Source of the DNA: Candidatus Cacconaster scatequi
GTDB lineage: Bacteria > Bacteroidota > Bacteroidia > Bacteroidales > UBA932
NCBI GenBank assembly: GCA_018065305.1
Contig: JAGHTO010000017.1
Coordinates: forward strand, 1-34,133
DNA: 34,133 bases
Direction of reading: 5' to 3'
Of the stretch, positions 10,706-29,149 are shown in pieces. Under the pieces are notes generated by a model. That model ran no database searches. It was not told where the DNA came from and saw only the letters and a program-made list of their open reading frames with translations. The translations under genes were made by a program, and so were the position numbers. Every line of letters starts with the position of its first letter. Within the stretch, counting starts at the first letter, position 1.

Positions 10706-10729
10706 TAAAAATTATGTCTCCTACGAAAT

Positions 10730-10921
10730 CCGCCACTGATTTGGCGGATTGTCTGTCAATTAAAAGGACCTAAGCACCCGCGCTTAATTAATACGCCATC
10801 AGGCGTTAGCGGAGGGCAGGCAGGGCAAGTTTGCGGGATAGCTGCCCGTAGCGGCGGGGTTCGGGGCAGAGCCCCGTATAAAAGCGAAGCGAAGTCCGAC
10901 TTAATTGACAGACAGGAGCCA
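10730..10921. repeat. Modular structured intergenic repeat, copy 1
   Basis: This copy shares with 29019-29149 an outer hairpin (CCGC..GCGG), TTGGCGGATTGTCTGTCA, ACCTAAGCACCCGCGCTT, TAGCGG, AGCGAAGCGAAGT-CGA and TGACAGACAGGAGCCA, in the same order. The ends TGTCTGTCAATTAA (10750-10763) and TTAATTGACAGACA (10901-10914) form a perfect 14-bp terminal stem. Three extra hairpins occupy the interior: ACGCC/GGCGT (10793-10806), GGGCA/TGCCC (10823-10847) and CGGGGC/GCCCCG (10862-10876). There is no coding potential. It lies just past the 3' end of the FeoB operon. It may be a structured RNA or a MITE-like element; transcription strand is unknown. Confidence 0.85.
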
Positions 10922-10935
10922 GAAGTGGCGGATTG

Positions 10936-11070
10936 TCATTTCTGCTTCTTCCGGCACACCGACAAAAGAAGGCATCCGCTACATCCTGATTTATGATGTA
11001 TGATATGATGCACAGCCGCAACCACACCGATTGCCAGCAGAACCAGAACTATGACCGTCACAACATTCAT
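10936..11070 (-). CDS. FeoB-associated Cys-rich small membrane protein
   Basis: 44 residues from ATG 11070, whose ATGA overlaps the feoB stop. One transmembrane helix (VVTVIVLVLLAIGVVAAV) is followed by HHIIHHKSGCSGCLLLSVCRKKQ, a His- and Cys-rich tail with CxxC. This layout and position match the FeoB-associated Cys-rich membrane protein family, thought to assist Fe(II) uptake, perhaps as a metal ligand near the FeoB pore exit. The usual length is 40-60 residues, so the gene appears complete. The stop codon lies within a GGCGGATTGTC sequence also present at the start of the adjoining repeat. Confidence 0.85.
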   Translation of the reverse strand: MNVVTVIVLVLLAIGVVAAVHHIIHHKSGCSGCLLLSVCRKKQK

Positions 11071-13361
11071 AACAGAAGAACCGCAATGGAATATACTGCA
11101 AAGGCCGCAAGATAAGCCACAGCACACTGAAGGATGACCATCCCGGCGGCCCATTTGAACCCTAGTTCACGCTTTACTACGGATATCGAGGCGACGCAGG
11201 GCGTATAGAGGAGGATGAATACAAGCAGAGAAAGCAGGGCTGCAGGCGGAAGGAACGATGCAAGAGCAGAAGGCCCCTGCCCCAGAAGAACCGACAACGT
11301 GGACACTACGCTTTCCTTAGCCATAAAACCTGTTATCAGAGCCGTTGACACCTGCCAGTTTCCGAATCCGAGCGGAGTGAACAGAGGGGCGACAAGGCCG
11401 GAAATAACAGCCAGCATACTCCCTTCCGGATCCGAAACCACGTTGAACCGGAAATCGAAAGTCTGAAGGAACCAGATTACGATGGATGCCACGAAAATCA
11501 CCGTGAATGCATTAGTGACAAAATCCCGGGCCTTCTCCCAAAGAAGCCTCATCACATTCTTCAGGGATGGCATCCTGTATGGAGGAAGCTCCATCACAAA
11601 CGGAACTGGCTCTCCCTTGAAGATGGTCTTGCGGAACAGAAAGGCGACCAGAACCCCGCACAAAATTCCGAAGAGATAGAGACCGGGTATCAGGTAAGCC
11701 CCCGACCCGGCCAGAAAGGCCGCCGCAAGCAGAGTATACACAGGCAGTTTGGACGAGCAACTCATAAAGGGAATAAGCAGAATCGTCATCTTGCGGTCAC
11801 GTACGGAAGGCAATGTGCGCGTGGCCATTACAGCAGGGACGGTACATCCGAAACCGGACAGCATAGGGACTATGCTTCCCCCGGAAAGGCCTATTTTTCT
11901 AAGCGGCGAATCCATCACGAAAGCGATGCGAGCCATATATCCGCTGTCCTCGATAATCGAAAGGCAGAAGAAAAGGATTATGATATACGGAAGGAAACAG
12001 AGGACTGTCCCCACCCCGTTGAAAATGCCGTCCGTCACAAGAGACTGGACAACAGGATTGAGGCCATAGGCCGTCAGCAATGCATCCGTCTCAGACCAAA
12101 GCCAGCCTATAAAGTTCTTGAGAAGATTTTCCAAAGTGCTGCCCACCGGCCCGAACGTGAGATAGAAAACAGAGGCGACTATCAGCACCATTGAAGGAAG
12201 CGCGGTGAACCGGCCGGTAAGGACCCTGTCAATCCTCCGGCTGCGCTTCTGCTGACGGCTTTCCACGGGCCTAATCACGGTAGCGGCACACAGGCGGGAG
12301 ATGAAATCGAACCTCATCTCCGCTATCGCGGCGTTGCGATCCAGCCCCCTTTCGCTTTCCAGCTGCGAAACAAGATGTTCCAGCATCTCCTTCTCGTTGG
12401 CGTCAAGTTCCAGCGCCTGAAGGATTGCACTGTCCCCTTCCACGAGTTTTGTGGCAGCAAAACGGCAAGGAATATCTGCGCGATGCGCGTGGTCCTCGAC
12501 AAGATGCATTATCGCGTGTATGCAGCGGTGGACGGCGCCCCCGTGGGCATCCGAGCCGCAGAAGTCATTTCTTTGGGGAGTCTCCCCATATTGGGCGACG
12601 TGAACGGCGTGCTCCACCAACTCCCCTATACCTTTCCCACGAGCCGCCGATATCGGAATGACCGGCACCCCGAGTATTCCCTCCATCTCGTTGACCAGAA
12701 TAGTCCCGCCATTGGCGGAAACCTCATCCATCATATTGAGTGCCACTACCATAGGTATCCCGAGCTCAAGCAGCTGGAGAGTCAGATAGAGATTGCGCCC
12801 GATATTGGAGGCATCCACTATGTTGATTATGCCGTTAGGCTTCTGCTTGAGGATGAAATCACGGGTAATGACCTCATCATTGCTGAAAGGAGAAAGAGAA
12901 TAACTCCCTGGCAGATCGACGACCGAGTAGAGGTCCGAACCCTTGATTTGATTGAAGAGGGTGGTTTTGCCGCTGTCCTGATTACCCACAAGTGCGAACG
13001 AAATCCGAGTCCCGGCAGGAAGCGGATGCTCGTCCTTTCTGTTGTGATGGATGCCGTCCTCACCCAGACCGGGGTGAGAAACCTGCTGACGCAAAGGTTT
13101 TTCCTCATCCGGGCCACACTCCGTGCATGCAGTGGACTGCTGAAGGGTTATCTGAATCTTATGGGCGTCCGCCGACCTGAGTGTCAGTTCATAGCCATTG
13201 AGCCGGAATTCAATCGGGTCCCCCATGGGCGCAGTCTTGACGAACTGCACTTTCGCGCCAGGGATAATACCCATATCCAAAAAATGCTGGCGCAGAGCGC
13301 CGTGACCGCCGACGGCGTGAATGATGGCCGTCTGTCCTGACTTCAGGTCTTTGAGTGTCAT
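11067..13361 (-). CDS. feoB: FeoA-FeoB fusion, ferrous iron transporter, lacking the G2/switch I segment
   Basis: 764 residues. Residues 1-75 are an SH3-like FeoA domain, a linker with CTEC (79-82) follows, then the FeoB GTPase domain and a polytopic transport domain with about ten membrane helices, starting near residue 390. FeoB imports Fe(II) through the inner membrane. G1 is GNQDSGKT (126-133), G3 DLPG (149-152), G4 NMMD (209-212), G5 SAA (238-240). Between G1 and G3 relatives carry about 24 more residues (xxQxVGNxPGVTVxxKxG) holding the G2 threonine and switch I. Here LFNQIKGS runs straight into DLYSVVDLPG (junction near 12936). Frame is kept. GTP-dependent gating would be expected to fail unless this is an assembly error. 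The gene overlaps both neighbours by ATGA. Confidence 0.93.
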   Translation of the reverse strand: MTLKDLKSGQTAIIHAVGGHGALRQHFLDMGIIPGAKVQFVKTAPMGDPIEFRLNGYELTLRSADAHKIQITLQQSTACTECGPDEEKPLRQQVSHPGLGEDGIHHNRKDEHPLPAGTRISFALVGNQDSGKTTLFNQIKGSDLYSVVDLPGSYSLSPFSNDEVITRDFILKQKPNGIINIVDASNIGRNLYLTLQLLELGIPMVVALNMMDEVSANGGTILVNEMEGILGVPVIPISAARGKGIGELVEHAVHVAQYGETPQRNDFCGSDAHGGAVHRCIHAIMHLVEDHAHRADIPCRFAATKLVEGDSAILQALELDANEKEMLEHLVSQLESERGLDRNAAIAEMRFDFISRLCAATVIRPVESRQQKRSRRIDRVLTGRFTALPSMVLIVASVFYLTFGPVGSTLENLLKNFIGWLWSETDALLTAYGLNPVVQSLVTDGIFNGVGTVLCFLPYIIILFFCLSIIEDSGYMARIAFVMDSPLRKIGLSGGSIVPMLSGFGCTVPAVMATRTLPSVRDRKMTILLIPFMSCSSKLPVYTLLAAAFLAGSGAYLIPGLYLFGILCGVLVAFLFRKTIFKGEPVPFVMELPPYRMPSLKNVMRLLWEKARDFVTNAFTVIFVASIVIWFLQTFDFRFNVVSDPEGSMLAVISGLVAPLFTPLGFGNWQVSTALITGFMAKESVVSTLSVLLGQGPSALASFLPPAALLSLLVFILLYTPCVASISVVKRELGFKWAAGMVILQCAVAYLAAFAVYSIAVLLL

Positions 13362-29018: not shown

Positions 29019-29149
29019 CCGCTGAAAATTGGCGGATTGTCTGTCACTTGTGAGAACCTAAGCACCCGCGCTTGATAGCGGGAGGGGCCCAGCGTCAGCT
29101 GGGAGGGATGAGCGAAGCGAAGTTCGAACGAGTGACAGACAGGAGCCAT
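29019..29149. repeat. Modular structured intergenic repeat, copy 2
   Basis: This shorter copy shares the ordered blocks of 10730-10921: CCGC..GCGG hairpin, TTGGCGGATTGTCTGTCA, ACCTAAGCACCCGCGCTT, TAGCGG, AGCGAAGCGAAGT-CGA and TGACAGACAGGAGCCA. The terminal stem is TGTCTGTCACTTGT with ACGAGTGACAGACA, one T·G wobble. Relative to copy 1 three pairs differ on both sides and remain paired. The interior has CCCAGC/GCTGGG (29088-29103) in place of the three hairpins of copy 1. It lies 11 bases past the guaA stop and upstream of lemA. Confidence 0.85.

Follow-up and report, generated by a model that had tools for sequence, protein, structure and literature searches.

A dispersed family of palindromic elements with exchangeable pseudoknot tips in Bacteroidales, possibly miniature mobile DNA

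The window, i.e., the whole stretch of 34,133 nucleotides of Candidatus Cacconaster scatequi that was analysed, carries two members of a dispersed family of hairpin elements. We are inclined, with somewhat more confidence than doubt, to interpret it as a new family of miniature non-autonomous palindromic mobile DNA elements, similar to ERIC, YPAL and TIR, in which the arms are homogenised by copying of one arm onto the other. The existence of the repeated element is far beyond chance: in the genome of origin we found 26 hits at E <= 1e-4 with a covariance model of the core (R1, built from 36 sequences), and a BLAST search with copy 1 returned 71 pieces, several of which covered most of a copy. 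The copies located by the original prediction at 10730-10921 (192 bases) and 29019-29149 (131 bases) were confirmed; its description of a two-copy element was wrong, since both belong to this larger family.

The element is one long imperfect hairpin of about 100-200 bp, reaching ~250 bp at most with extra tip modules, and the same plan recurs across subfamilies with seemingly unrelated arm sequences. From the outside in, an outer stem of ~7-11 bp and a loop are followed by a stem of 3-5 bp, an internal loop that is asymmetric (GGAT/GGA here, whereas other species have GGG/GA), and the inner stem, 12-28 bp long, which carries the tip; in most cases the tip opens with an H-type pseudoknot (Table 1). 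The paired arms of copy 1 extend slightly beyond the limits given above (10728-10737 with 10924-10933), and a convincing outer stem is absent from the sequence around copy 2 (29030..29148). Of the five ordered blocks reported to be shared by the two copies, four could be named, (T)GGCGGATTGTCTGTCA, CCTAAGCACCCGCGCTT, GCGAAGCGAAGT and TGACAGACAGGAGCCA, the fifth having been left undefined. The comparison of ATTAA/TTAAT with CTTGT/ACGAG was reproduced, with both sides changed in three pairs, one pair the same and one T.G. As for the neighbouring genes, GuaA beside copy 2 was recovered (Pfam GMP_synt_C), the 72-aa ORF beside copy 1, proposed to encode a FeoB-associated protein, had no Pfam match, and the gene that follows this ORF is, according to Pfam, a FeoA-FeoB fusion. 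A single frame of 764 aa on the minus strand of the window (11067-13361) holds both the FeoA and the FeoB domains.

Table 1. Parts of the two elements of the window (positions of the window; + is the strand carrying the pseudoknot motif).
Feature	Position	Strand	Sequence or partner
Copy 1, entire hairpin element	10728..10933	+	
Copy 1, outer stem, 5' arm	10728..10737	+	ATCCGCCACT; partner 10924-10933
Copy 1, short stem and 5' side of asymmetric internal loop	10742..10749	+	TGGC (partner GCCA 10918-10921) + GGAT
Copy 1, inner stem, 5' arm	10750..10763	+	TGTCTGTCAATTAA
Copy 1, conserved block; in other copies the 5' part of the pseudoknot	10769..10785	+	CCTAAGCACCCGCGCTT
Copy 1, exchanged tip module containing hairpins of its own, common to L002 and L003	10786..10883	+	
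Copy 1, conserved block	10884..10897	+	GCGAAGCGAAGTCC
Copy 1, inner stem, 3' arm	10901..10914	+	TTAATTGACAGACA
Copy 1, internal loop 3' side, short stem, outer stem	10915..10933	+	GGA, GCCA, AGTGGCGGAT
Copy 2, paired element	29030..29148	+	TGGC (29030-29033) to GCCA (29145-29148)
Copy 2, inner stem, 5' arm	29038..29051	+	TGTCTGTCACTTGT; partner ACGAGTGACAGACA at 29128-29141
Copy 2, H-type pseudoknot	29060..29082	+	
Copy 2, pseudoknot stem S1	29060-29063 with 29070-29073	+	AAGC with GCTT
Copy 2, pseudoknot stem S2	29065-29069 with 29078-29082	+	CCCGC with GCGGG
Copy 2, variable hairpin	29088..29103	+	CCCAGCGTCAGCTGGG
Copy 2, conserved block	29110..29125	+	GAGCGAAGCGAAGTTC
Copy 2, inner stem, 3' arm	29128..29141	+	ACGAGTGACAGACA

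Further copies were sought in related genomes and found: within the genus the covariance model gave hits in 30 of 40 genomes (genome of origin included), with 1-48 per genome, and a BLAST search with copy 2 matched 26 of 37 genus genomes and 0 of 24 genomes from other families. In the wider order the distribution is patchy, model hits occurring in 6 of 393 genomes, again including the genome of origin. The 38 named matches to the core pattern were Bacteroidales or Bacteroidia MAGs, many of them from rumen or hindgut, and one was titled Candidatus Cryptobacteroides fimicaballi. Contigs C60, C61, C27, C28, C24 and C29 of the assembly of origin (G000) start or stop at or near copies, so that there may really be more copies than the 26 model hits indicate. 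A genome of another family of the order (G214) contains numerous copies whose long, near-perfect arms have another sequence (GAAGGAATATGCTTTGAAGACC), some of the copies forming adjacent pairs (L214, L218, L223, L226, L229, L231, L233 and L235). Rfam had no match to the element (the window at gathering score, 16 loci at E <= 1), and a known RNA family was rejected on that ground. A phage or plasmid origin was rejected on the missing matches, copy 2 having none in phage or plasmid records and the exact core pattern of one subfamily being absent from IMG/VR. Our searches of the open-licence PMC literature did not turn up such a family, and it is on these searches and on Rfam only that we call it undescribed.

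Comparison of orthologous loci gave indications of movement. The genome of origin and a relative ~90% identical to it (G006) were comparable at five loci, three of which lack the element in G006; it is present there at L042 and L003. At the locus of copy 2 the genes are separated by 18 bp in G006 vs 192 bp, and the corresponding lengths are 23 vs 251 bp at C58:66k and 3 vs 161 bp at C58:71k; insertion or deletion fits in each case, and by eye no target-site duplication was recognised at the three empty sites, whose flanks are AT-rich. The interior of the element may be inverted or replaced. At C44:104.5k (L042/L075) the two modules and the arms are the same in both genomes, with both cores inverted in G006, a flip that is clear in the sequence; in L003/L115 the tip has been swapped within near-identical arms and flanks; in L053, compared with L076/L082, the whole interior is clearly flipped, internal loop included. 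For L051/L087 and L244/L250, matches of the flanks are the main evidence of inversion. Of the remaining orthologous pairs that contain a single element and match in both flanks, 15 show the same orientation and 6 the opposite one, a figure in which two of the opposite pairs join different elements and the pairs of one locus are counted repeatedly. When the G006 copy at C107 was sought in G000, synteny stopped at the element. Taken together, the dispersed family, the empty orthologous sites in a ~90%-identical relative and the inversions support the non-autonomous mobile repeat that had been proposed as one of two readings.

One question raised by the family is its mobilising enzyme, for which a Y1 (RAYT-like) protein acting in trans is a possible answer and the leading candidate. 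No Y1_Tnp was found in the genome of origin, and no mobilising gene was found beside the copies. Across the genus, Y1 matches are present in 26 of 37 genomes (64 matches, 24 genomes over the cut-off), mostly in frames of 300-360 aa; the core lies beside the Y1 gene in 0 of the 24 Y1 loci fetched, L187 and L188 having it further off, outside the flanks inspected. Copy number correlates with Y1 at 0.51 and with genome size at 0.48, so the link with Y1 is no stronger, and 6 of the 29 copy-bearing genomes are without detected Y1. As the Y1-flanking test failed, the family was not classed as REP/TIR of a RAYT, and a resident RAYT as its source was rejected. Many of 20 Y1 loci of the genus display by eye other hairpins of ~110 bp on one or both sides of the gene (L188-L193, L195-L200, L202, L203 and L205). 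Many of these hairpins have CTGATNATCAG-like palindromes in both arms, and their inner stems vary by gene yet stay paired (AATCGGTTGCG, AATCGTGTGCG, AATCCGCTTGCG).

Reverse transcription of a retron-like or other RNA would also agree with a structured core between inverted repeats, and one RVT_1 gene is present in the genome of origin. However, RVT_1 was detected in 10 of 37 genomes and is unrelated to copy number (Spearman 0.21, p 0.21), the 113 copies have no recurrent neighbour gene beyond orthologous loci, and a spread of the family in genomes without reverse transcriptase is suggested; we regard this origin as extremely unlikely.

The tip has a fold of its own. Stem S1 of the pseudoknot occurs as AAGC/GCTT, AACC/GGTT, AGCC/GGCT, TGCC/GGCA, GGCC/GGCC and AGAC/GTCT, and stem S2 as CCCGC/GCGGG, CCCTC/GAGGG, CCCGT/ACGGG and CCCAT/ATGGG. 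The RNAalifold model (14 pairs) does not contain the pseudoknot, which was therefore counted by a script whose anchors were chosen without regard to pairing; this parsed 113 of 121 cores, leaving 8 unparsed, into 26 unique combinations, some of them visibly misparsed composite tips. In this set, 72 of 104 S1 pairs are Watson-Crick, compared with a mean of 47.7 and a maximum of 64 in 2000 shuffles, and so are 42 of 52 at the two variable pairs of S2 (mean 22.5, maximum 33, 2000 shuffles). A pseudoknot with two covarying stems supports a tip that folds as a single strand, either RNA or ssDNA. Loop L1 is one base and L3 measures 4-7 bases in 110 of 113 cores, a geometry that presumably fits the + strand. 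The freely varying hairpin after the pseudoknot exists in 76 unique forms with 17 G.T against 1 A.C, nearly all at one position, and this excess favours the folded + strand. The motif GGGAGGGG is invariant in alignment A1, whose rows were picked with that motif, so nothing was drawn from it; among relatives in G214 it varies. A second tip module (ACTTTGGCTCCCGAAGAGGGAGGGGACCCACGTCAGTGGGGAGG) was observed in locus-specific arms of its own, beside or inside copies of the first module (L042:2100-2210, L036:2050-2180), and recurs in G006.

Compensatory changes in stems are the standard argument that an RNA is functional, and those in the terminal stem had accordingly been attributed to selection acting on a folded hairpin of RNA or DNA. 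A lack of covariation, named at that time as refuting, was not observed, and the arms do covary: matched arms (score >= 24) were found in 132 of the 147 copies with enough flank, with a median own-arm score of 36, whereas the null, in which the left arm of one copy was set against the right arm of another, had its 95% value at 22 and a maximum of 29. L010 is a counter-example, with arms from two subfamilies and the pairing lost. Once the 15 of 147 copies scoring < 24 (L010 among them) and 22 redundant ones were dropped, the arms of the remaining 110 non-redundant copies contained 3236 Watson-Crick pairs and 65 isolated mismatches, namely 20 G.U, 14 A.C and 31 other. The 20 G.U and 14 A.C do not depart from a ratio of 1:1 (p 0.39), whereas a ratio of 5:1 is rejected (p 0.0006). 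As a control, 20 tRNAs from the window and other loci (more than one genus, 3 of the 20 not cleanly parsed) gave 207 Watson-Crick, 15 G.U and 1 A.C at isolated pairs, and 400, 43 and 1, respectively, at all stem positions, the dots of ARAGORN, which leaves mismatches unbracketed, being counted as stem positions. Moreover, in a few copies of the genome of origin one arm end has been rewritten as the complement of the other, in one direction in L015 and L038 and in the opposite direction at C45:129k, as judged by which end form is common. The nearly balanced mismatches and the rewritten ends point to arm copying at the DNA level; hence arm covariation by itself is no proof of RNA selection, and of the earlier claim it is the folded single strand that stands, supported by the pseudoknot of the tip. 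The arms have the appearance of DNA palindromes whose matching is maintained strand-symmetrically, and not of RNA helices. Template switching is documented in the cited accounts as an origin of paired changes in hairpins (PMC8794818; PMC8604942).

The covarying pseudoknot, its loop geometry and the G.T excess of the tip hairpin are also what would be expected of an undescribed structured non-coding RNA or 3'-UTR RNA element, in which selection on the + strand RNA would keep stem and pseudoknot, the copies being duplications of a useful RNA. Sequence conservation at some loci agrees with this. At a radical-SAM / metallo-hydrolase locus the inner element is 96-99% identical and the flanking genes 81-88% (five species pairs), and the same holds for L088/L090/L091 (98-100% vs 82-92% for the flanking genes), L060/L259 (100% vs flanks at 89-91%) and L053/L076 (97.5% vs flanks at 86-89%); an inner element more conserved than its flanking genes suggests a function, not plain parasitism. 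Excess conservation was not seen in L094/L104 (element 86 vs 85-86%), L051/L087 (78 vs 82-89%), L256/L270 (75-83 vs 79-88%) and L293 at the radical-SAM locus (76-81 vs 81-85%), so these alignments suggest constraint on the inner element at certain sites and not in general. Against an RNA stand the strand-symmetric arm mismatches, the flips at some orthologous loci by which copies take the opposite orientation to the surrounding genes, the missing Rfam match, the unbiased orientation of the copies with respect to the neighbouring genes, and the antisense position of both window copies to the genes they follow. On the whole we consider a structured RNA unlikely, albeit worth serious attention.

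The placement of the copies was analysed using ORFs defined by a simple length rule, which overlapped 37 of the 113 copies; 79 of the 113 had ORFs on both sides and could be classified, the other 34 being at locus edges. The 79 comprise 30 convergent, 10 divergent and 39 tandem sites, the last divided between the two orientations as 17 and 22, i.e., with no orientation bias. A bidirectional intrinsic terminator or a 3'-end protector between genes would be in keeping with the prevalence of convergent over divergent sites; nevertheless, TTTT within 15 nt after the arms was found at 5 and 13 of 134 (the two sides), with a background of 8.5%. The missing T-run makes Rho-independent termination unlikely, and an intrinsic terminator was rejected; a role of the family as terminator or protector has very little to recommend it.

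A few copies have arms unlike those of their own subfamily, namely L041, L042, L103, L073 and L211. The common core lies inside 23 perfect arm pairs of its own in L041 and 28 in L042, and the L041 arms are unique in the genome, their next-best match there having E 1.67, nothing better than chance. L211 (positions 1480-1590), from a genome of the same taxonomic family (G404), has a related hairpin in frame within an lpxB gene (Pfam LpxB); the hairpin adjoins about three tandem coding repeats, the start of the repeat matching the right arm of the hairpin. Long near-perfect private arms could mean that arms are a by-product: a G-rich structured core would stall replication, and fold-back synthesis would build or rebuild inverted repeats of the neighbouring DNA, so that the hairpin would not be the mobile unit. 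The observed core flips fit this proposal, and template switching is known, from the cited text, as a source of such repeats (PMC8794818). Yet within subfamilies the arms, asymmetric internal loop included, are common to dispersed copies, meaning that they usually travel with the core, and no empty allele was seen for any of the five copies with unique arms; we therefore hold the by-product idea to be improbable. The same five copies would fit a mobile core that produces its terminal repeats itself, fold-back synthesis upon arrival at a site copying the adjacent target DNA in inverted form to give new long arms, and later arm copying keeping the match and flipping the core. This we put forward as a long shot.

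In the reading that we prefer, of a miniature mobile palindrome, the matching of the arms would be due mainly to copying of one onto the other as DNA, by template switching or cruciform conversion, and the apparently compensated changes would arise in one step. What moves would be a folded strand of DNA, processed by a transposase that acts in trans, the best candidate being Y1 (RAYT-like), and the excess of convergent over divergent sites may indicate that there a hairpin does no harm, or is of slight use, on whichever strand it forms. The family looks like a natural case of paired changes arising at the DNA level, and the same 100-200 bases also contain a folded tip. Because some genomes have dozens of copies and the related species are many, the maintenance of hairpins by template switching becomes directly countable, and a palindromic element family with exchangeable tips is added for Cryptobacteroides and, patchily, for other Bacteroidales.

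The known systems resemble this family in part. YPAL/RU-2 and ERIC/RU-1, as described in the cited articles, are miniature palindromic elements of enterobacteria, 127-168 bp long and gene-free; for YPAL both empty and filled sites are known, with targets near dyad symmetry (PMC2229807; PMC2267715), and analogous elements move without a gene of their own (PMC2229807). Our elements share with them, as far as these accounts go, the similar size, the long stem-loop, the intergenic position, the multiple copies without a gene of their own and the empty and filled sites. They differ in that the arm sequence varies by subfamily and locus, the tip has a covarying pseudoknot and is swappable, target duplication was not recognised, and the host phylum is another. 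The REP/REPIN and TIR repeats of RAYT/TIRYT transposases are reported as palindromes with conserved interruptions near the 3' ends of genes (PMC3733652; PMC6006769), and the Bacteroidetes subclass 2.6 TnpA_REP genes as having atypical flanking structures copied elsewhere in the genome (PMC6006769). The likeness extends to the palindromes, the conserved interruptions and the position near gene 3' ends, but not to a resident Y1, missing from the genome of origin, nor to a core beside Y1 genes in the 24 loci fetched. As in template-switch hairpins, one DNA event could explain the perfect stems, the multi-base paired changes and the spacer inversion; those were described, in the cited texts, for RNA genes and yeast coding sequences, whereas here they would concern a dispersed mobile family (PMC8794818; PMC8604942). 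The covarying pseudoknot tip, the tip exchange, the strand-symmetric turnover of the arms and the flips set this family apart from its ERIC/YPAL/TIR kin.
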